A DNA stretch of 64,000 nucleotides from Candidatus Kapaibacterium sp. (GTDB lineage Bacteria; Bacteroidota; Ignavibacteria; Kapaibacteriales; UBA2268). The stretch covers positions 1-64,000 of the forward strand of contig JAOABA010000049.1 in the NCBI GenBank assembly GCA_026418625.1, read 5' to 3'. The translations under genes and the position numbers were made by a program. The notes under the pieces are model-generated. The model saw only the letters and a program-made list of their open reading frames with translations, was not told the origin of the DNA and did no database searches. Of this stretch, positions 29,558-41,123 are shown piece after piece. The first letter of the stretch is position 1, and every line of letters begins with the position of its first letter.

Positions 29558-30724
29558 ATGCAAATGGATATATGTTATGGTGGGGTTCCAAGCAAAATTC
29601 CCCAGAATTCAATGGGAATAAGAGGTTATGATTATGTTGAATTTTATGTAGGTAGTGCTAAACTTGTAGCATACTGGTTTGCTAAAGCACTCGGAATGAA
29701 AATTTCAGCATATAGAGGTCCCGAAACTGGTGTTCGTGATAGAATTTCTTATCTTTTAAAATCTGAATATGGAATGAAATTTCTGATAACATCAGCACTC
29801 CAACCAGAGACATTTGACATAAATTCATTTGTTGAACTTCACGGAGATGGTGTAAAAAGATGGTCAGTCGAAGTGGTTGATGTTAAGGAAACATTTTATA
29901 AAGCAGTGAAAAATGGTGCTATCCCTGTCAGATTACCTCAAAAAAGTGAAGACAAAGATGGTTATGTTGAGGAAGCAGCAATAAGGCTTTATGGTGATTG
30001 TGAAATAAATTTTGTTAATTACGATAATTATAACGGAATTTTTAAACCCGGTTTTGGTCAGCCTATTCAAAATATTGAAATTTCTTGTCAGGAAACAGGT
30101 TTAAAGCTCATTGACCATATTGTTGGAAATGTTCATATTAATGAGATGGATTACTGGGCTGATTACATAAACAAATCATTGGACTTTGAAACATTCATAT
30201 ATTTCGGTCCGGGTGATATTTCAACTAAATACTCTGCTTTGCTTTCCAAAGTGGTTAGGTCTAAAGATGGAATAATTAAAAATCCAATAAATGAACCTTA
30301 CGAAGCAGAAAGACTTTCACAAATTGAAGAATATACTCAGCAGTATCGAGGTTCTGGTATTCAGCATATAGCAATAAGCACTCTTGACATTATAAAGACA
30401 GTGAGTGCATTGAAAGCCAACGGAGTTGAATTTCTCGATGCTCCACCTGATACTTATTATGAAACGCTTTCGAAGCGTGATTTCGGTTTAACTGAAGATT
30501 TAAATGAATTACAAAAGCTTGGCATTCTTTGTGATGTTGAAGGACAAGGCTATTTATTACAAATATTTACTAAACCAACCTTTAACCGTCCGACATTCTT
30601 CTTCGAAATTATACAAAGAAGAAATGGTGCCTCAGGCTTTGGTCAAGGGAACTTTCAGGCTCTCTTCGAAGCAATTGAAAGAGATCAGGAAAAACGTGGA
30701 AATTTAATTAAAACACAAGTTTAA
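29558..30724 (+). CDS. hppD: 4-Hydroxyphenylpyruvate dioxygenase
   Basis: HPPD converts 4-hydroxyphenylpyruvate to homogentisate using Fe(II) and O2. The 388-residue protein has two vicinal-oxygen-chelate halves, and the metal ligands are in place: H187 (LIDHIVGNVH), H270 (GSGIQHIAIS) and E350 (TFFFEIIQRRNGASGFGQGN). The C-terminal closing helix is intact (FQALFEAIERDQEKRG). The ATG at 29558 follows GAGGTG with a 5-base spacer, supporting this start. It is the first gene of a four-gene operon with hmgA, an aminotransferase and fah, and requires oxygen. Confidence 0.97.
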   Translation: MQMDICYGGVPSKIPQNSMGIRGYDYVEFYVGSAKLVAYWFAKALGMKISAYRGPETGVRDRISYLLKSEYGMKFLITSALQPETFDINSFVELHGDGVKRWSVEVVDVKETFYKAVKNGAIPVRLPQKSEDKDGYVEEAAIRLYGDCEINFVNYDNYNGIFKPGFGQPIQNIEISCQETGLKLIDHIVGNVHINEMDYWADYINKSLDFETFIYFGPGDISTKYSALLSKVVRSKDGIIKNPINEPYEAERLSQIEEYTQQYRGSGIQHIAISTLDIIKTVSALKANGVEFLDAPPDTYYETLSKRDFGLTEDLNELQKLGILCDVEGQGYLLQIFTKPTFNRPTFFFEIIQRRNGASGFGQGNFQALFEAIERDQEKRGNLIKTQV

Positions 30725-30743
30725 CATTAAAAAGTAGTTAATT

Positions 30744-31904
30744 ATGGCATTTTATCATAAACTTGGTTCGATACCTACAAAGAAACATATTACTTTTTAC
30801 AAAGATGATGGAAGATCTCTTTATAGAGAAGAATTAGTCAGCACAAAGGGATTTTCGGGTATTTACAGCACAAAATATCATATTAATGCACCTACAAAAA
30901 CATTAGAAATAAGAGAATTGGAAAGAATTCCTTTAAATAAATGGGATGATATGCCATTACAGCATATCCATTTCAAGACTAATTTGAAAAAAAGTGATGG
31001 AGATTTTTTAACATCAAGAAATATTTTTCTCGAAAACCCTCATTGTATCATCAGCACTGCTCATCCAAGCAAGAACAGTGATTATTTTTATAAAAATGCT
31101 TATGCACACGAATATATTTTTGTTCATTATGGCTCCGGTATTTTTGTCTCTGACTATGGAAAATTTAATTTCGAACCGGGTGACCAATTAGTTGTCCCAA
31201 TGGGAACCATATATCAGTTAAATTTCAATAATTTTGACAATAATAAATTATTAATTGTCGAATCGGATACTGCTTTTGAAATACCAAAGCATTACAGAAA
31301 TGAATATGGACAATTAAATGAAGATGCACCATATTGCGAGAGAGATTTTAAACTACCTGAATATTTTCAACCCTATGATAATGATGGACGTTTTAAACTA
31401 ATCATAAAAACAGGTTTAAGGCTCTTTGAATATATCTTACCTCATCATCCTTTCGATGTTGTAGGGTGGGATGGTTATCTTTATCCTTACGCATTCAATA
31501 TTAGGGATTTTGCGCCAAAAGTTGGTAAATTGCATTTACCTCCGCCTGTGCATTTGGTGTTTGATACTCAACATTTTGTGCTTTGCAATTTCTGTCCTCG
31601 TCTTTTTGATTTTCATCCTGAAGCGATTCCGGTTCCTTACTTTCATACAAATGTCGAAAGTGCCGAGGTTTTATATTATGTTGAGGGAGATTTTATGTCT
31701 CGCAAAGGTGTAGGTGAGGGGTCAATAACGCTTCACCCACTTGGTTTGCCTCACGGTCCTCAACCGGGGAAAATTGAGGAATCTCTCGGTGCAAAGGAGA
31801 CTTATGAATATGCAGTTATGATTGATACATTTGCACCCCTTGGAGCAACAAATAATGTTAAAGAAACAATGGATGAAAATTATTATTTATCTTGGCTGGA
31901 TTAA
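30744..31904 (+). CDS. hmgA: Homogentisate 1,2-dioxygenase
   Basis: The enzyme opens the homogentisate ring to maleylacetoacetate with Fe(II) and O2. The 386-residue cupin-fold protein shows the family start MAFYHKLGSIPTKKH, the GWDGYLYPYAFNIRDF stretch, the Fe-ligand region PYFHTNVESAE (H301 onwards) and HPLGLPHGPQPG (H337). Length suits the bacterial form; human HGD is somewhat longer. It lies 19 bases after hppD, so the operon performs two consecutive oxygen-dependent steps. Confidence 0.96.
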   Translation: MAFYHKLGSIPTKKHITFYKDDGRSLYREELVSTKGFSGIYSTKYHINAPTKTLEIRELERIPLNKWDDMPLQHIHFKTNLKKSDGDFLTSRNIFLENPHCIISTAHPSKNSDYFYKNAYAHEYIFVHYGSGIFVSDYGKFNFEPGDQLVVPMGTIYQLNFNNFDNNKLLIVESDTAFEIPKHYRNEYGQLNEDAPYCERDFKLPEYFQPYDNDGRFKLIIKTGLRLFEYILPHHPFDVVGWDGYLYPYAFNIRDFAPKVGKLHLPPPVHLVFDTQHFVLCNFCPRLFDFHPEAIPVPYFHTNVESAEVLYYVEGDFMSRKGVGEGSITLHPLGLPHGPQPGKIEESLGAKETYEYAVMIDTFAPLGATNNVKETMDENYYLSWLD

Positions 31905-31941
31905 ATTTAATTCTATTTAATAAATATCTTTGTTAATTTTT

Positions 31942-33036
31942 ATGATAACAATTCCTGAATATATTCAGAATTTAACTCCTTATAAACCCGGTAATAAATT
32001 AAAAACTGGCAAGAAACAAAAAAACATCTCAGAATTCATTAATCTTGCTTCTAATGAAAATCCCTTAGGTGCATCTCCCAAAGCAATTGAAGCACTCAAA
32101 GAGACAACAAAATATTTATCAATTTACCCTGATGTAGGTGCCACTGAGCTAATTAGCTATTTATCAGAAATGTTAGGAAAACCTGAGCAAAATATAATCG
32201 CTGGAAGTGGTTCTGATGCTATTATTGGTGATATTATCAAAGCATTTTCAGATTATGGTGATGATATTTTAACTGCTGAAGAGACTTTCATTGGTTATTT
32301 TGTAAATGTTCTAAAATTAGGCAGAAATCTTATTAAAGCACCAATGAAAAACCATCAATATGACCTCGATTCAATTTTAAATTCAATTACACCCAAAACG
32401 AGAATAATTTTTCTTTCAAATCCCAATAATCCAACAGGTTCGATGTTCTTTAAGAAAGATTTTGAATCATTTCTTAAAAAAGTTCCTGAAAACATTTTAA
32501 TTGTCTATGATGAAGCATATTCAATATATGCTGCTTTGCACGAAGGTTACCCTGATGGATTGGATTATGAACAAGATAATTTAATAGTTGTTAGGACATT
32601 CTCGAAATCTCACGGTTTGGCTGGAATTAGAATAGGATTTGCTTTTGGTCCTGAAAACTTAATTTCTACACTCTATAAAGTCAAGTTACCTTTTGAACCA
32701 AATTCAATTGCCCAAAAGGTTGCTTTAGCCGCTTTAACTGATTATGACTTTATATTTCAAACAATTAAATTAAATACTATTTCAATTGAAAGGTTGACAA
32801 ATTTATTTGATGAACTAAAGGTTGATTATATCAAGCCCTATGCAAACTTTGTGATGATACTTTTCGAAAATCAGGATTTAGCAAGGGATTTTGTTGATAA
32901 GTGTTATGAAAATGCCATACTTGTTCGTCATTTAACCCCTTTTGGTGTTCCTAACGGTGTCAGAATAAGCACTGGAACTCACACCCAAATGGATTATGCT
33001 TTAAATGTTTTTAAAAAATTACTGAGAGAAAAATGA
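31942..33036 (+). CDS. PLP-dependent aminotransferase, HisC-like (probable aromatic aminotransferase)
   Basis: A fold-type I aminotransferase close to histidinol-phosphate aminotransferases. Visible motifs are LASNENPLGASPKAIEAL, FLSNPNNPTG, the PLP-contact region IVYDEAYSIY and the Schiff-base lysine in TFSKSHGLAGIRIGF (about K222). By position between homogentisate dioxygenase and fumarylacetoacetate hydrolase it probably converts tyrosine (or phenylalanine) to the 2-oxo acid used by HPPD; a role in histidine synthesis is less likely because no his genes are near. The ATG at 31942 is preferred to the in-frame TTG at 31930. Its stop overlaps the fah start by 4 bases (ATGA). Confidence 0.9.
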   Translation: MITIPEYIQNLTPYKPGNKLKTGKKQKNISEFINLASNENPLGASPKAIEALKETTKYLSIYPDVGATELISYLSEMLGKPEQNIIAGSGSDAIIGDIIKAFSDYGDDILTAEETFIGYFVNVLKLGRNLIKAPMKNHQYDLDSILNSITPKTRIIFLSNPNNPTGSMFFKKDFESFLKKVPENILIVYDEAYSIYAALHEGYPDGLDYEQDNLIVVRTFSKSHGLAGIRIGFAFGPENLISTLYKVKLPFEPNSIAQKVALAALTDYDFIFQTIKLNTISIERLTNLFDELKVDYIKPYANFVMILFENQDLARDFVDKCYENAILVRHLTPFGVPNGVRISTGTHTQMDYALNVFKKLLREK

Positions 33037-34046
33037 AACTTGTAACATATTTAAATCAGGATTTTCAATCAAGACTCGGAATGCTCATTGATAACCAAAT
33101 AATTGACATACAAAATGAGACAAAAAAATTAGGCTTTGAGTTACCATCAAATATGTTATTATTGCTTAATGATTGGGATAGAAATTTCGAATTAGTAAAA
33201 AATGCTTATGAAAAATTGAAATCCTCAGGAGATTTTTCAATCGTTAATCCTATAAAATTGTTATCTCCAATTCCAAATCCTCCTTCCTGCCGTGATGGTT
33301 ATGCTTTTCGTCAGCATGTTGAAGCTGCCAGAAGGAATAGAGGACTTGATATGATTCCTGAATTCGATCAATATCCTATCTTTTATTTTACCAATCATAA
33401 TGCAATTTTTGGAGAAGGAGAAATCGAAGTTGAAATTGACCATCTCGATAAGCTTGATTTTGAACTTGAATGGGCTGCAATAATCGGAAAACGCGGAAAG
33501 AATATTAATTCAAACGAGGCTGACAATTATATAGCCGGTTTTACCATTATGAATGATTTTTCTGCAAGAACACTACAAATGGAGGAAATGAAATTGAATC
33601 TGGGACCCGCCAAAGGAAAAGATTTTGCTACAACTCTTGGTCCTTGGCTTGTTACGACTGATGAATTAGAAAGTAAAGTTATCAAGACACAGTTCGGAAA
33701 TAAATATAAGCTCGAAATGAAAGCCAGACACAACGGAATTGAGGTTTCTTATGGAAATACCTCTGATATGAATTGGACATTTGCAGAAATTATCGAAAGA
33801 GCTTCTTATGGTGTGGAACTTTTTCCCGGTGATGTTATTGGTTCGGGAACTGTTGGGACTGGTTGTTACCTTGAATTAAATGGAACAAGGGCAAGATTAG
33901 CAAAGGATAGGGGAGAAGACTATCAACCTATCTGGTTGCAGGATGGCGATATAATAGAATTGGAAATCGAAAATCTTGGAATTTTAAAAAATAAAATAAA
34001 ATGGAATGGCAGTAACCATTCCATTCTTAAAAAAAAGAAAATCTAA
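33033..34046 (+). CDS. Fumarylacetoacetate hydrolase family protein
   Basis: FAH splits fumarylacetoacetate to fumarate and acetoacetate, the last step of homogentisate breakdown. The 337-residue protein shows the FAH fold motifs RDGYAFRQHVEAARR, FELEWAAIIGKRGKN (metal-ligand Glu), TIMNDFSARTLQMEE and KGKDFATTLGPWLVT (catalytic Lys/Asp region), and GDVIGSGTVGTGCYLE. Translational coupling to the aminotransferase by a 4-base overlap places it firmly in the tyrosine operon. The 3' end of the gene contains a hairpin terminator for the convergent operon. The acetoacetate product can be activated by the ligase encoded at 26462-28423. Confidence 0.94.
   Translation: MKLVTYLNQDFQSRLGMLIDNQIIDIQNETKKLGFELPSNMLLLLNDWDRNFELVKNAYEKLKSSGDFSIVNPIKLLSPIPNPPSCRDGYAFRQHVEAARRNRGLDMIPEFDQYPIFYFTNHNAIFGEGEIEVEIDHLDKLDFELEWAAIIGKRGKNINSNEADNYIAGFTIMNDFSARTLQMEEMKLNLGPAKGKDFATTLGPWLVTTDELESKVIKTQFGNKYKLEMKARHNGIEVSYGNTSDMNWTFAEIIERASYGVELFPGDVIGSGTVGTGCYLELNGTRARLAKDRGEDYQPIWLQDGDIIELEIENLGILKNKIKWNGSNHSILKKKKI
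33986..34025 (-). terminator. Terminator of the cytochrome b / Fe-S / kinase operon, inside fah
   Basis: Perfect 10-base arms AATGGAATGG (34000-34009) and CCATTCCATT (34016-34025) enclose a 6-base loop. Read on the minus strand, the stem is followed by TTATTTTATTTTTT (complement of 33986-33999), a good U-rich tail. It lies 28 bases after the stop of the stand-alone receiver gene. On the plus strand no T-run follows, so it should act mainly on leftward transcripts, although it overlaps the last codons of fah. Confidence 0.85.
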
Positions 34047-34053
34047 ATTTCAC

Positions 34054-34431
34054 TTATTTTATTTTCAGAACTTCTTTAATTTTTCCGATAAATTCATCTT
34101 TGTCAATAGGCTTATCAAAATATGCTACAGGAGGCGGCACTTGCTTCCTTGATTCGATAAAATTTTTGAAATCGTGTGCAACACCTGTAACAATAAAGAC
34201 AGGTATGTTCTTTGTTGCTTCATTTTCAGTCAGATTCCTGTAAGCTTTAACACCTGATTCTTCGGGCATTGAAATATCAAGACAAATTAAATCCGGCTTT
34301 TCAGAAAGTGCTTTATCGAAGCCTTCTTTGCCATTCATCGCTTCGATAACATCAAAGCCGTTATCTCCAAGGAGAGTTCCTAAATAAGTAAGAATGTCGT
34401 TATCATCGTCAACAATAAGAATTTTTGCCAT
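34054..34431 (-). CDS. Stand-alone receiver-domain response regulator
   Basis: The 125-residue protein is a receiver domain only: acidic pair D8/D9 (ILIVDDDND), phospho-acceptor D52 (ICLDISMPEESG), T82 (FIVTGVAHD) and K107 (YFDKPIDKDE). It closely resembles the receiver fused to the Fe-S protein two genes upstream (shared DILTYL, DNGF, VTGV and KP motifs, and a lengthened loop between T and K). It is the last gene of the cytochrome b / Fe-S / kinase operon, 21 bases after the kinase gene, and lacks an output domain, so it may act by protein-protein contact or phosphorelay. Confidence 0.95.
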   Translation of the reverse strand: MAKILIVDDDNDILTYLGTLLGDNGFDVIEAMNGKEGFDKALSEKPDLICLDISMPEESGVKAYRNLTENEATKNIPVFIVTGVAHDFKNFIESRKQVPPPVAYFDKPIDKDEFIGKIKEVLKIK

Positions 34432-34452
34432 ATTTTCTAACCTTTCAAAAAA

Positions 34453-35865
34453 TCACAACTTGCTTATTGGTAATTTAATAATAAATTTTGAACCTTTTCC
34501 AATTTCTGATTCAACTTTTATTTCGCCATTATGTTCATCAACAATTTTCTTAACAACCATAAGCCCAAAACCACTTCCTGAACTTCCTTTTGTAGAATAT
34601 AAAGGCGTAAATAGTTTACTTTTTACATCATCACTCATACCGTGTCCATCGTCAATCACAGTCAGGTAAATGAAATTATCATAATAAGAAAGCAATATTT
34701 CAATATTGTGCTGATTTTTATTGCTATCCCACTTACAAGCATCAATAGCATTTTCAATGAGATTCAAAATTAATGTATAAATCGCTTTTGAGTCGCCAAA
34801 GAAGTAATCGGAAAACCTAAGATCCAATTTGGTTGATATGTTAAGGTCATTCAGCTTTTTTGAATATAATTCTACAATCTCTTCGCAGACTTTATCAATA
34901 AAAATCTCTTGCTTTTCAGGGACACGGTCTTTGGCATAATATAGCATATCAAGAACGAGGTGGGAGACACGTTCGACATTTCGTTGAACCATCTCCCAAC
35001 CTTTTTTGATAATTTCGTCTTTATTTTGTCTGAATCCTGATTCTACTACATACATTCCACCATCTAAACCAGAAATAATACCTTTTATAGTATGTGCTAA
35101 ATTTGCTACTAATTGACCAACATTTGCCATTTGGCTCTGAATGCGTTTGATATCTGTAATATCTGTTGTCATCTCCATTACAGCAGTTATTTCACCAGAT
35201 TCATTTTTTATTGGTGCAGCTAATACCAGAATATTCATCAGGATACCATCTTTTCCAGCTACAATTTCTTCGCTTGTGTGAATTTTCCCATCTTCAAAAG
35301 TTTCAGCAACAGGACAGATTTCGCACCGAGAGTCCCTTTTTTTATAGAGATAATAACAATATTTATTTCTATAATCACCGAATTCATCCTTAAATTTCTT
35401 ATTTGCATCTATGACGATGAAATCTTTATTCTGAACTGAAATAAAACAAGGAACTACATTGTAAAGCATTCTGTATTTTTCAATGCTTTCTTCTAATCTC
35501 CGTTGTAATTTTTTTGATTCGGTAATATCAGTAGCCATTTCGATTGCTGCGACAATATTACCATTATTATCATATATTGGAGCTGTCTGTGCATTAACAT
35601 AAACAGGAAAACCTTCAGGGGAAAAGACCAATTCCTCTGATTCAAAGATTTTTCCCTCTGAAAATGTTTTATCCATAGGACAAACAGGGCATTTGTCTTC
35701 CCTCATCTTGTAAACAACATAACAATACTCACCAATTCTATCACCAAAGGTTTCCCTGAATCTTCTGTTTGTTTTGATGATTTTATAATCCCTATCTTGA
35801 ATTGATATATAGCAGGGGACTTCATCAAACAACATTGAGTCTGTTAATTGAATTGTTGTTTCCAT
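34453..35865 (-). CDS. Histidine kinase with two four-cysteine PAS domains
   Basis: The 470-residue soluble protein has two PAS repeats (about 8-118 and 130-240) followed by a kinase core. The likely phospho-His is H258 (ANLAHTIKGIISGLDGG); N-box LILNLIENAIDACKW and G boxes DDGHGM and GSGFGLMVVKK are present. Each PAS has four Cys at identical relative positions: C18, C48, C59, C62 and C140, C170, C181, C184 (intervals 30, 11, 3 in both). The CPVCP/CEICP motifs suggest bound iron-sulfur clusters, zinc or disulfide switching; which one is not determinable here. No transmembrane segments are seen. It lies 2 bases downstream of the Fe-S/receiver fusion gene, pointing to cytoplasmic redox sensing linked to that enzyme. 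Confidence 0.93.
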   Translation of the reverse strand: METTIQLTDSMLFDEVPCYISIQDRDYKIIKTNRRFRETFGDRIGEYCYVVYKMREDKCPVCPMDKTFSEGKIFESEELVFSPEGFPVYVNAQTAPIYDNNGNIVAAIEMATDITESKKLQRRLEESIEKYRMLYNVVPCFISVQNKDFIVIDANKKFKDEFGDYRNKYCYYLYKKRDSRCEICPVAETFEDGKIHTSEEIVAGKDGILMNILVLAAPIKNESGEITAVMEMTTDITDIKRIQSQMANVGQLVANLAHTIKGIISGLDGGMYVVESGFRQNKDEIIKKGWEMVQRNVERVSHLVLDMLYYAKDRVPEKQEIFIDKVCEEIVELYSKKLNDLNISTKLDLRFSDYFFGDSKAIYTLILNLIENAIDACKWDSNKNQHNIEILLSYYDNFIYLTVIDDGHGMSDDVKSKLFTPLYSTKGSSGSGFGLMVVKKIVDEHNGEIKVESEIGKGSKFIIKLPISKL

Positions 35866-35867
35866 AG

Positions 35868-37619
35868 CTAATTCAAATTATCAACTTTAACTTCAACGCA
35901 TTTGCGGACTATTTTTAGTAAAAGTTCCTTTTCAACTGGTTTTTCGATATAACCCTCAGGCTTCGGAAGACTGTGTTCATAAATAAATTTTCGATGATCT
36001 AACTGACCGGGATTGTCAGGATTAACCCCTGTTACAAAAATTACCGGAATGTCTTTATATTCTTCATTCGTTTTCAATTCTTTATATATGCTTAATCCGT
36101 TTTTTCCAGGCATTGCAAGGTCCAAAGTTATTAAATCAGGTTTTTGAGTAGTTAAAAATTCCATAGCATTTTCATAATTTGTAGCTGTGTAAGTATTAAA
36201 ACCATTATCATTAAATAAAGTGGACAAATATGTTAAAATATCAACTTCATCATCAACCATAAGAATTAGTTTTTCTTCTATTTCAGGAGCCTTGAATGTT
36301 GGTGTAATGAATTTCTTATCTATGATAAGGGCATCAGCAACAAGTTCACCAACAAGTTTTACTTTCATCTTAAGCTTATAGTGTTTTATCAAATCAGTCA
36401 AACCATCAACGCAATTGTGACAGGCAGTAGCAACAATATTAGCTTCAGTCTCTTTTAATTGATTAGCTTTAACAACAGCTGTTTCGAGTCTTCTTTTTGA
36501 GTATTCCGACATTGACATAGCTCCACCTCCACCGGTGCAACAATAATTATCAGCTCTGTTTGGATACATTTCCTGAAACATTGATACAGACTGTTTCAAT
36601 AAGTATCTTGGTTCTTCAGTTATACCTCCGCTTCTTCCAAGGTTGCAAGGATCATGATAGGTAACTTTGAACGGGTTCAATGAAGGATCAAGCTTTATTC
36701 TACCTGATTTAACATAATCTACCATAATTTCCAAGAAATTAAAGATTGGAAATTTAAGGTCTCTTCCAGTCCAATTAGGACTTTCCCAAGCTGTGGCACG
36801 ATAACCATGACCACACTCTGAAGTAACGAGCATTTTTCCGTTTAATCTCTCAACACTATCAAAAACAAGATTGCCCATATGAGCGCCAAGTTTATTATCA
36901 CCAGAGAATAAGCCAAAATTTGTGTTGTCCCAGCCTTTTGAGGACATTGTCCAACTCTCGCCTGCTGCATAGAAAATTTTTGCTGCTGCGAGAAGGCTCT
37001 GAGGAGCATATTTGATTTCCCTGGGATTCACTGCATAAACAATATTGCAATTTGGTTTATCCATTGGAATCTCAGCAATTGGATCATCAAGTTCCATTTG
37101 AAGCTCTTCGTTTAGCCATTCAATAGTTTCTAAGTATTCTTCTTCAGAGACACCCATTTGATTTCCAGTTTCCCATTGATCTTTGGCAACATCAATTACG
37201 CCTTGTGGGGCAATTCCCTGTTCGTAAAGAATTGATCTGCCAGTTCTCATTAAAAGAGCTTTGTCAACCCCCATCGGGCAGTTGAAAGAACACCTACGAC
37301 ACATTGTGCAACTGCCAAAAGTAATATCCATAAGTTCTTTTAGATCTTCTTCATTTTCAAGTTCTCCACCACCGACCCATTTTGGAAGTAATTTTCCAGT
37401 CCAATCAAAATACTTTTTATAAAGCTTTCTTACTCTGTCAGCTTTGTAAGCTGGTGCCATTTTAGGATCTTTTGTTGCGAGGTAATAGTGACAGGATTCT
37501 GTGCACATTCCACAGTGAACACAGACACCGAAAGACAAAATTGCTTGTCTATTCATTCTGGTTTTAAAAGCTTCATTCGCTTTATGAGCTCTAGTTGAAT
37601 TTTGATTTATTTCATTCAT
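35868..37619 (-). CDS. HdrD/DsrK-like iron-sulfur oxidoreductase fused to a C-terminal receiver domain
   Basis: The 583-residue protein starts with a two-cluster ferredoxin region: C33-x2-C36-x2-C39-x3-C43 and C104-x2-C107-x2-C110-x3-C114, each able to hold a [4Fe-4S] cluster. A cysteine-rich CCG domain follows (C325 in HDPCNLGR, C360/C361 in YCCTGGGG, C400/C403 in ACHNC), the active-site type of HdrB/D, DsrK and glycolate oxidase GlcF. A first CCG half is degenerate (C269 region). Residues 451-575 are a receiver domain (D456/D457, D500 in LITLDLAMPGKNG, K560). The DsrK-like part probably exchanges electrons with the quinone-linked cytochrome b encoded 33 bases upstream. Fusion to a receiver is unusual. 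AAGGAG (37627-37632 on the minus strand) precedes the ATG by 7 bases. Confidence 0.93.
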   Translation of the reverse strand: MNEINQNSTRAHKANEAFKTRMNRQAILSFGVCVHCGMCTESCHYYLATKDPKMAPAYKADRVRKLYKKYFDWTGKLLPKWVGGGELENEEDLKELMDITFGSCTMCRRCSFNCPMGVDKALLMRTGRSILYEQGIAPQGVIDVAKDQWETGNQMGVSEEEYLETIEWLNEELQMELDDPIAEIPMDKPNCNIVYAVNPREIKYAPQSLLAAAKIFYAAGESWTMSSKGWDNTNFGLFSGDNKLGAHMGNLVFDSVERLNGKMLVTSECGHGYRATAWESPNWTGRDLKFPIFNFLEIMVDYVKSGRIKLDPSLNPFKVTYHDPCNLGRSGGITEEPRYLLKQSVSMFQEMYPNRADNYCCTGGGGAMSMSEYSKRRLETAVVKANQLKETEANIVATACHNCVDGLTDLIKHYKLKMKVKLVGELVADALIIDKKFITPTFKAPEIEEKLILMVDDEVDILTYLSTLFNDNGFNTYTATNYENAMEFLTTQKPDLITLDLAMPGKNGLSIYKELKTNEEYKDIPVIFVTGVNPDNPGQLDHRKFIYEHSLPKPEGYIEKPVEKELLLKIVRKCVEVKVDNLN

Positions 37620-37652
37620 TTTTTTTCTCCTTAAGTTTGTAGTAAAATAATA

Positions 37653-38312
37653 TTATTGAACTCTGACCTTTGGATAAACGCCTCGATGACCGAAATGCTT
37701 ACCAAAATAATACCTCGAAAAGGGCCACAATATATAGTGTGACATTTTACTGAATGGGACATAAGCAATTAAGAATGCAGTAATCGCAAGGTAGATGCCC
37801 ATTATGAGAGTATTATATAGGTCATATACAAACCAAGAAGCAAAAAAGAACCAGACACACATTAGAATGATGGAAAAGTAATCATCAGGATGGCTGATAA
37901 TTCTATTGACAGGCAAAAATATTCTTCGTGCCAGCCTAATAAGTGTTATGATAAATGATATAGGAAATAAAACCATAAAAAAGTTTTGAAAGATGGTTTT
38001 ATCAATTAGCGACTCGTTCCCAAAGGAAACGATAAACGAAACAATAATTGCGAAGGCAACGCCGATATGAAAGATTGCAAACTCAGTCCAAACATACCAT
38101 TTTTTTCTCGTGCTTTCCATTTCCCATGGCATAGCAATATTCAGATAGGAATTAATGATAGCTTTTTGCTTATTGCCTTTTGAGGGTGTTCGCTCTACCA
38201 TTGGCTTAAATCTCATTATCCAGATTATTTTGCCAATGTATACGGTTCCCATAATGAATAAGGCAATTAGATGGACTTCATGCTTTAGGATGCTGATAAT
38301 ATGAGGATCCAT
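37653..38312 (-). CDS. NarI/DsrM-like membrane cytochrome b subunit
   Basis: The 219-residue protein has about five hydrophobic helices (approximately 13-33, 76-97, 108-127, 146-166, 168-186). Candidate haem ligands include H11/H14, H82 (EFAIFHIGVAFAI) and H192 (FSKMSHYILWPFSRYYFGKHFG). The C-terminal SHYILWPFSRY motif matches the NarI/DsrM/HmeC-type quinone-interacting subunits that partner HdrD-like Fe-S proteins. It is the first gene of the four-gene operon, and AGGGAGA precedes its ATG. Likely function: moving electrons between menaquinone and the cytoplasmic Fe-S protein; direction and soluble partner are unknown. Confidence 0.87.
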   Translation of the reverse strand: MDPHIISILKHEVHLIALFIMGTVYIGKIIWIMRFKPMVERTPSKGNKQKAIINSYLNIAMPWEMESTRKKWYVWTEFAIFHIGVAFAIIVSFIVSFGNESLIDKTIFQNFFMVLFPISFIITLIRLARRIFLPVNRIISHPDDYFSIILMCVWFFFASWFVYDLYNTLIMGIYLAITAFLIAYVPFSKMSHYILWPFSRYYFGKHFGHRGVYPKVRVQ

Positions 38313-39580: not shown

Positions 39581-41011
39581 TTAGAATTTTTTTAGTAGAA
39601 TATAATCTTGAATCCAACCTTGAGGGTAATCATCAGCATTTTGGATGATTTTATTGTTGCCCGATTTTGAAAAACGAAGGATAGGTTCATAAAAATCTTT
39701 CAACTTGGTATTGAAAATTAGATTTATATTTTCTTGATTTGAATTTAAAAATAAATAGTCAGCTTTGCTTGAAAGAAAAAAATTCAATCTTTCTTCTTTT
39801 TTCACAAATTTTGAAGAAATTAAGCCTTGTGTATCAATAATGCGACCTTTGAATAAATATCCAATAATACCTATATCATCAGCAATAAGTGTTTTATTGA
39901 TTTTTTTGTTGGATTTTGCCCAATTTTTTAATGGATAATAAATATTTTTAGTAACTGGTTTGAAACCTTGAGTGTAAGCTGTAGCTAAGTTAGCAAACAA
40001 TGCTATTATGAATGAAAAGATAGCGATTCTTTGAAAAGTAAAAAGTTTCTTAAATTTTTCAAGATAACCTAATAGGTAAACGAAGCCTACACCTGAGAAC
40101 AAAGCTAAACCAACTCTAATAACAAAACTATACCAGGGCCAGGGATGTGGTCTAATTATGGCATAAGATACTATTAGTAATAAAATCCAAAAACCGAATA
40201 ATTTTAGGAAGGGATCTGTTTTATGAATTCTTGAAATTCCAATCAAAGCCAATGGTAAGGTAATAATTGAAATTGGATCCCTCAAAAAGAACATATTTAT
40301 TAGTTCAATTAAGGATGAGCCTGTTAATTCACTTTTTGAAAGGACTGATTGTGGTAGAATATTTCCATATATCTGATACATAAAAATAAGTGGTATTGAT
40401 AATGTTGCAATACTTATGATAACAGTAAAAAATGCATGTTTATATTGTTTCGTGAAAATATCATTTAAAAATAAAATTAATAGTAATGATAATGCTTCAG
40501 GACGGATAAAATAGGCAATAGAGCAAATGATAACAGCTAAAACTTTTTTTTCTTTCAGATATAAATTAATAGTTATTACCGACATTAAAAGAAATAAATT
40601 TACTTCCATCCCACCGATAGTTATTCTGGAAATTAGCACGCTACCTGAAAAGATGAAAAGGAAAACTCCTAACTCTATAATCTTATTGTTATTGAGCAAA
40701 ATCTTAGAGATAAAGAAAACTGTCAAGGTATCGAGTAATATATTTAATATGACAGCCGAATCTGGCATTGGAAGCCCGATTTTAAAGAAAAGACTTAATA
40801 TAATGGCAAATAGGGGAGAAGTTGTTCCAAGAATATTTTCACCAATGTTATAAACTAAACCATTACCTGATGATAAGTTGTAAGCATATCTAAAAGTAAT
40901 AAATGCATCATCATAAACATCATAAATGAAAAAAGAAAGTAAACGAATAACAAAAACTAACAGGGCTGAAAGAATGATTATTGTTGATTCTTTAGACTTA
41001 TCGGTCATCAT
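39581..41011 (-). CDS. Polytopic membrane glycosyltransferase-like protein (GT-C type)
   Basis: The 476-residue protein has roughly ten or more transmembrane helices. After the first helix it carries the motif DVYDDAFITFRYAYN with the acidic pair D34/D35, then SSGNGLVYNIGE, a pattern shared by GT-C glycosyltransferases that use lipid-phosphate sugar donors. A soluble C-terminal part contains a DTQGLIS segment. Donor and acceptor are unknown; surface glycan or glycoprotein assembly is likely. The reading frame continues upstream into the tRNA-Leu gene, so I place the start at the ATG at 41011 (MMTDKSKES); 41008 is an alternative. Confidence 0.8.
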   Translation of the reverse strand: MMTDKSKESTIIILSALLVFVIRLLSFFIYDVYDDAFITFRYAYNLSSGNGLVYNIGENILGTTSPLFAIILSLFFKIGLPMPDSAVILNILLDTLTVFFISKILLNNNKIIELGVFLFIFSGSVLISRITIGGMEVNLFLLMSVITINLYLKEKKVLAVIICSIAYFIRPEALSLLLILFLNDIFTKQYKHAFFTVIISIATLSIPLIFMYQIYGNILPQSVLSKSELTGSSLIELINMFFLRDPISIITLPLALIGISRIHKTDPFLKLFGFWILLLIVSYAIIRPHPWPWYSFVIRVGLALFSGVGFVYLLGYLEKFKKLFTFQRIAIFSFIIALFANLATAYTQGFKPVTKNIYYPLKNWAKSNKKINKTLIADDIGIIGYLFKGRIIDTQGLISSKFVKKEERLNFFLSSKADYLFLNSNQENINLIFNTKLKDFYEPILRFSKSGNNKIIQNADDYPQGWIQDYILLKKF

Positions 41012-41039
41012 CAATAAAGTGGCAATACTTTTGAAAATG

Positions 41040-41123
41040 TGCCCGGAACAGGACTTGAACCTGCATGAGGTTACCCTCACTACACCCTGAATGTAGCGCG
41101 TCTGCCAATTTCGCCATCCGGGC
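41040..41123 (-). tRNA. tRNA-Leu (anticodon CAG)
   Basis: On the minus strand the sequence begins GCCCGGA and ends TCCGGGC plus discriminator A, giving a perfect 7-base acceptor stem. The anticodon stem CTACA/TGTAG encloses a loop with anticodon CAG (complement of 41087-41089), reading CUG leucine codons. A long variable arm (TGAGGGTAACCTCA) identifies the class II leucine type. The T arm is GCAGG-TTCAAGT-CCTGT. The CCA end is not encoded. It lies between mutS2 (40 bases upstream) and the glycosyltransferase gene (28 bases downstream), on the same strand. Confidence 0.97.

Follow-up and report, generated by a model that had tools for sequence, protein, structure and literature searches.

The closest described relatives of the locus analysed here are three electron-transfer complexes and one family of receivers. 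The Tmc complex (TmcABCD) of Desulfovibrio resembles it in combining an Fe-S subunit that carries a CCG motif with a small TmcC-like membrane subunit, and TmcB has DsrC as its predicted electron acceptor (PMC10553843). Hmc (HmcABCDEF) is similar in that HmcF is the top-scoring model for the Fe-S part of the locus and HmcE the second for its membrane subunit, while DsrMK, also within DsrMKJOP, likewise pairs a quinone-side membrane subunit with a CCG Fe-S subunit acting on DsrC. Kinase and receiver or response regulator genes are found beside tmc/hmc genes in Desulfococcus multivorans, an arrangement said to resemble that of D. vulgaris (PMC5109826). Among the NCBIfam receiver models, the DVU0259 family (NF045717, 117 positions) is the best match for both receivers of the locus; this model describes a stand-alone receiver, whereas here one of the two copies is fused to an enzyme and both score under the cut-off of 160 bits (lone receiver 109, fused receiver 95). 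Neither receiver of the locus carries an output domain. A search of the open literature found no receiver-fused heterodisulfide-reductase-like proteins, and a term search of two papers on Dsr evolution and diversity and of the Thermonerobacter paper gave no mention of the fused unit; for the D. vulgaris locus tags DVU0258-0265 the same literature yielded a single, unrelated proteomics paper. A receiver fused into a respiratory enzyme, and its spread over about ten phyla, appear undescribed in the open literature searched.

The window, i.e. the whole 64,000-nucleotide stretch of Candidatus Kapaibacterium sp. analysed here, contains a four-gene operon on the minus strand in the order cytochrome-b-like membrane quinone subunit (hereafter CYB; 219 aa, 37653..38312), Fe-S/receiver fusion (583 aa, complete, 35868..37619), histidine kinase (34453..35865) and lone receiver (125 aa, 34054..34431). 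The genes are separated by 33, 2 and 21 bases, and the operon ends at a terminator-like hairpin followed by a T-rich tail (33998..34027), which has a 13-pair stem with a fold energy of -17.4 kcal/mol (z = -6.6) and sits within the 3' end of the convergent gene 33033-34046(+). The first-pass annotation is exact in its coordinates, strand, gene order and gaps, and the hairpin that it had placed at the operon end is real. Its further claim of an Fe-S protein joined to a receiver in one frame holds as well, with Pfam Fer4, CCG and Response_reg domains in a single open frame. Frameshift or misassembly is ruled out as the source of the fusion, as 34 genomes carry this architecture in a single open frame, 33 of them in addition to that of the window. 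ORF 39581-41080(-) as listed begins within a tRNA-Leu (41039-41123), and its true start lies further downstream.

The Fe-S part of the fusion (aa 1-440, 36300..37619; Pfam Fer4_8 and CCG) contains two [4Fe-4S] ferredoxin motifs (C33/36/39/43 and C104/107/110/114) and a CCG motif (C325, C360-C361, C400 and C403; C-x34-CC-x38-C-x2-C), and all of these cysteines are invariant among 48 aligned sequences. The motifs place the protein in the HdrD/DsrK/TmcB-like CCG superfamily. The initial description was Hdr/DsrK-like, but HmcF (319 bits, cut-off 750) and TmcB (308, cut-off 735) both outscore DsrK (263, cut-off 400). The membrane subunit is not recognised as NarI or DsrM: its sole NCBIfam matches are weak ones to TmcC (40 bits, 2e-10; cut-off 240) and HmcE (35 bits, 1.5e-8; cut-off 275), and its only invariant histidines are His82 (39/39) and His192 (35/35) instead of the four conserved in the NarI/DsrM-type cytochrome with two haems b. 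These two residues suggest one haem, and with so few invariant histidines both haem number and quinone path are unsure. Because the scores fall under the curated cut-offs, membership in DsrMK, Tmc or Hmc is ruled out. Further differences from the known complexes are the covalent attachment of the receiver in comparison to Tmc, with no tmcA type II cytochrome c3 or tmcD recognised in the operon or adjoining it (genes read by eye), the absence of hmcABCD genes in or next to the operon, and the presence in the host of a true DsrK of its own (718 bits) along with another DsrK-like protein (298 bits). A more Hmc-like operon also exists separately in related genomes. It is found at L043-L049, in the same family, and comprises DsrK/HmcF-like, HmcE- and HmcB-like genes and an HmcC-like gene fused to a multihaem cytochrome c. 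Several genomes have a stand-alone receiver in its vicinity, and a kinase and second receiver lie nearby; two of the host genomes (G013, G008) showed no fused operon.

In an AlphaFold2 model of the fusion (pLDDT 88.8, pTM 0.72), two confident domains are joined by a flexible linker (aa 437-446, 36282..36311; pLDDT <50), and the best solved-structure match is M. smegmatis EtfD. The fused receiver domain (aa 450-575, 35895..36272; Response_reg 7.5e-19) has the residues of a two-component receiver, namely the phospho-acceptor Asp500, the acid pair Asp456/457, Thr530 and Lys560. Among the 34 fused receivers the acid pair is DD in 33 and ED in one, phospho-acceptor and lysine are kept in all, and the threonine position is always Thr or Ser (Ser in nine). 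The signature G.PE.R..IY before the conserved lysine is present in 27/34 fused vs 1/29 lone receivers, hinting at a specialised surface. The lone receiver clusters with receivers from the Hmc-like operons of the same family, and Pfam detects no DNA-binding domain in either receiver. A lone receiver is found near 24 of the 34 fused loci; several loci with sequence to spare (e.g. L034, L035, L061, L080, L085) have none nearby, so that the fused receiver is the only local partner of the kinase there. The kinase itself comprises two PAS domains (aa 13-118 and 140-238), the phospho-acceptor His258 and an ATPase domain (aa 357-467), with no membrane part recognised by Pfam. Its phospho-acceptor histidine and N and G boxes are those of a histidine kinase, and H258, N372, D405/G407/G409, G430/432/434, C59, C62, C170, C181, C184 and C377 are invariant among 29 kinases. 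What had been annotated as a four-cysteine PAS kinase indeed carries PAS cysteines, but it has two such domains with four cysteines each, eight in total, in the spacing C-x29-C-x10-C-x2-C (C18, C48, C59 and C62 in PAS1; C140, C170, C181 and C184 in PAS2). C48 and C140 are each kept in 28/29 and C18 in 19/29 kinases. The C-x10-CxxC portion is also present in kinases of the Hmc-like operons, and the cysteine spacing of the Fe-S PAS sensor NreB is unlike that of the kinase. The structural model of the kinase (pLDDT 83, pTM 0.44) consists of a pair of PAS folds, a helical region for dimerisation and the ATPase domain; its PDB matches are ordinary sensor kinases.

Among 149 relatives searched, six further members of the window's GTDB family have the fusion, and scanning genome contigs with the Fe-S alignment gave 80 loci across many phyla. 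The 34 genomes with the fusion all fall within one 43-row clade (SH-aLRT 99). Their record titles name Kapaibacterium/Bacteroidetes, Melioribacteraceae, Zixiibacteriota, Deltaproteobacteria, Acidobacteria, Calditrichaeota, Planctomycetota, Electryonea, LCP-89, Tariuqbacter and Elusimicrobia, about ten phyla in all, although these labels come from bins and single ones may be wrong. The fused state requires 4 changes on the tree vs about 28-30 when shuffled, a count that cannot separate gain from loss. CYB immediately precedes the Fe-S gene in all 33 fused loci that could be tested, and a co-directional kinase lies directly downstream in 29/31; the exceptions are L078, with a nearby kinase on the other strand, and L082, with none, while at L073, L079 and L086 the sequence ends too early for the kinase to be judged. 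At L059 a separate receiver gene lies just downstream of the Fe-S gene; it carries G.PE.R..IY and nests among the fused receivers, which marks it as a secondary fission. An apparent triple fusion of CYB, Fe-S part and receiver in L070 and L071 was rejected as a start-codon artefact of ORF calling. In the phylum of L068, a sample of 297 genomes contains ten full-length fusions, seven unfused forms of 477 to 491 residues with 61-64% identity and many unfused Tmc/Hmc-like proteins with roughly 35-46% identity. The fusion is not accidental, as it recurs in 34 genomes with the same neighbours. A gene for a macro-domain (ADP-ribose-binding) protein is located near CYB in 27/34 fused loci, mostly directly upstream (e.g. 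upstream of CYB in L060, L061, L068, L075 and L083; also L038:15097-15627). Given this incomplete distribution, and that one search with the L038 protein as query gave no counterpart in the window genome, the gene was rejected as an essential part.

The hosts of the fusion are linked to dissimilatory sulfate metabolism, a context that, like the tie to DsrC, the first-pass annotation had overlooked. dsrA is over the cut-off in 29 of the 34 hosts and aprA in 27, with one more case of each as fragmentary sequence (a fragment of dsrA, fragments of aprA), and 33 of the 34 carry one or the other; the same number have dsrAB or aprBA, and the sole host without dsrA and aprA is the Planctomycetota bin L071. 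Among the 54 genomes of the window's GTDB family, 14 have dsrA over the cut-off and seven have the fused operon, all of them dsrA-positive (7/14 vs 0/40 in the other genomes; Fisher p about 2e-5, ignoring kinship among members of four genera). Seven dsrA-bearing genomes of the family lack the operon, so sulfate reduction does not require it. In the window genome, contig C19 carries sat, aprBA, two further genes, a qmoC-like gene, dsrAB, a small gene, a dsrN-like gene, another small gene, a dsrL-like gene, dsrC and dsrM/K-like genes in this order, and dsrMKJOP genes are present as well. The C19 order equals that published for Ca. Thermonerobacter thiotrophicus (PMC6338057), a member of the Kapabacteria family UBA2268 for which a reductive pathway was inferred (PMC10591310), and the window most likely stems from a UBA2268-like predicted sulfate reducer. 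Convergent with the operon in the window lies an apparent aerobic tyrosine/homogentisate degradation cluster (29558-34046; HPPD-like, homogentisate dioxygenase-like, HisC-like and fumarylacetoacetase-like translations); for an organism predicted to reduce sulfate, this suggests a facultative lifestyle. A DsrC gene is adjacent in 3/34 fused loci; L060 and L068 share the order DsrC, macro domain, CYB, Fe-S/receiver fusion, kinase and receiver, followed by DsrM-like and DsrK-like genes, and in G044 and G035 the fused operon is within about 20 kb of dsrA and dsrMK. As DsrC is so rarely adjacent and half of the dsrA-bearing relatives lack the operon, it represents an accessory, perhaps conditional, route. 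Elsewhere in the window genome (G000, contig C4), L138:4852-5511 encodes a 219-residue protein with two tandem DsrC-like domains. Two small proteins (144-145 aa) that start alike and match neither Pfam nor NCBIfam models are encoded at L053:4716-5153, between the dsrN-like and dsrL-like genes of the dsr locus, and, in G016, at L036:12197-12631, next to the lone receiver that precedes the fused operon; they are a possible further dsr link.

Unfused relatives outside the clade have the same CYB and Fe-S subunits as the fused operon but neither receiver nor kinase. Clade B comprises 43 unfused loci, mostly with 42-48% Fe-S identity, from Bacteroidales, Aminicenantes, Acidobacteria and others. DsrC is present in 40/43 and CYB directly upstream of the Fe-S gene in 41/43, while the kinase is found in none; a cysteine desulfurase usually adjoins. 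The resulting operon of DsrC, cytochrome b, HdrD-like Fe-S protein and cysteine desulfurase (L040, L103, L105, L109, L120, L127, L128) is conserved and apparently uncharacterised. In contrast to the fused hosts, dsrA is over the cut-off in 0/21 unfused hosts with DsrC and desulfurase, i.e. 17 tested clade B hosts and four within the fused clade (L081, L087, L088, L090). The first-pass annotation had viewed electron-transfer enzyme and signalling proteins as one device, a view at odds with any CYB/Fe-S pair that persists without kinase and receiver. Within the fused clade, enzyme, fused receiver and kinase co-occur across many phyla as proposed; outside it they do not, and the 43 unfused homologues without such kinases identify the CYB/Fe-S pair as an independent module and the signalling link as specific to one lineage of that pair. 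The core pair is a DsrC-linked module able to exist by itself, and the signalling part goes with the lineage that sulfate metabolisers use.

Our best reading, to which we give slightly less than an even chance as a whole, is a DsrMK/TmcBC-like electron module that serves dissimilatory sulfate metabolism and bears, on its cytoplasmic head, a tethered receiver controlled by the neighbouring kinase. As its family would imply, CYB would draw electrons from menaquinol and pass them through two putative [4Fe-4S] clusters to a non-cubane [4Fe-4S] site at the CCG motif; this site would reduce a protein di- or trisulfide, most likely that of DsrC given its synteny and the host pathway, parallel to DsrMKJOP. 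The PAS cysteines of the kinase may sense the cytoplasmic redox or sulfur state, upon which the kinase would phosphorylate Asp500 of the tethered receiver. Phosphorylation could then shift the receiver on its linker and open or block partner access to the CCG site, resulting in a post-translational switch of respiratory electron flow, with the lone receiver probably acting as a further phosphorylation partner of this kinase or as its phosphate sink. The stronger claim, that the respiratory enzyme is itself the response regulator and receiver phosphorylation directly turns menaquinol-to-DsrC flow on or off as fast, non-transcriptional control of sulfate respiration, is possible and on balance doubtful. 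Restriction to a single clade with few changes, fixed neighbours, kept catalytic residues, the receiver signature, the host pathway, the dsr neighbourhood in L060, L068, G044 and G035 and the modelled pair of domains on a flexible linker all speak for the tethered-receiver module; the rare adjacency of DsrC, the dsrA-bearing relatives without the operon and the two CYB histidines speak against it, as do the unfused cousins, in which the same enzyme apparently operates without any receiver.

An unlikely alternative is that information flows in the opposite direction, with the Fe-S subunit as the sensor: its reduction state or DsrC occupancy would govern receiver phosphorylation or phosphate drain and so report the quinone/DsrC redox state to the kinase and then to the lone receiver. 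The frequent presence of a lone receiver, which could carry the message, is in agreement with this, and a kinase without a recognised membrane part would need input from the membrane pool; however, the kinase already has two conserved cysteine-rich PAS sensor domains, several loci have no lone receiver nearby and no output protein is encoded. We likewise see only a small chance that a disulfide or sulfur carrier other than DsrC is the partner (for example a small thiol disulfide or polysulfide), in which case the unit would be an accessory redox valve and not a step of sulfite reduction. This proposal concerns the partner only and can be combined with any other reading. The few adjacent DsrC genes and the occurrence of unfused relatives in genomes without dsrA would fit it, against which stand the DsrC genes that nevertheless accompany nearly all of those relatives in clade B, the sulfate/sulfite pathway of all but one fused host and the predicted action of the related TmcB on DsrC (PMC10553843). 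Quite improbable, in our view, is a receiver that serves for localisation or oligomerisation by setting complex assembly, membrane clustering or kinase docking while catalysis is unchanged. Receivers often work through dimerisation, and the conserved surface stretch G.PE.R..IY and the flexible linker would suit such a role, but a receiver acting as a scaffold alone would hardly be expected to keep all its phosphorylation residues. Ordinary clustering, in which the kinase and lone receiver would control expression or a different process and the fusion would have arisen neutrally from neighbouring genes, has precedents in the regulators and kinases published beside Tmc/Hmc genes in Desulfococcus multivorans (PMC5109826) and in the separate receivers and kinases adjacent to the Hmc-like operons of related genomes, but is very unlikely in view of intact active sites in 34 fused genomes, a fission at L059 that keeps the receiver next door and the lack of a DNA-binding domain in either receiver.

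For the tethered-receiver module, the covalent position of the receiver on the Fe-S subunit would point to the electron-transfer enzyme itself as the target, which, if true, means that two-component control acts directly on respiration. The unfused cousins without a receiver would constitute a natural control supplied by the tree. Recurrence of the fusion in sulfate metabolisers of about ten phyla suggests, without proving it, that phosphorylation acts as a direct switch of one step in sulfate respiration. The operon would then be a point at which several uncultured phyla regulate entry into sulfate or sulfite reduction, and, if the receiver indeed gates the enzyme, many uncultured sulfate reducers would possess fast, non-transcriptional control of sulfate respiration.
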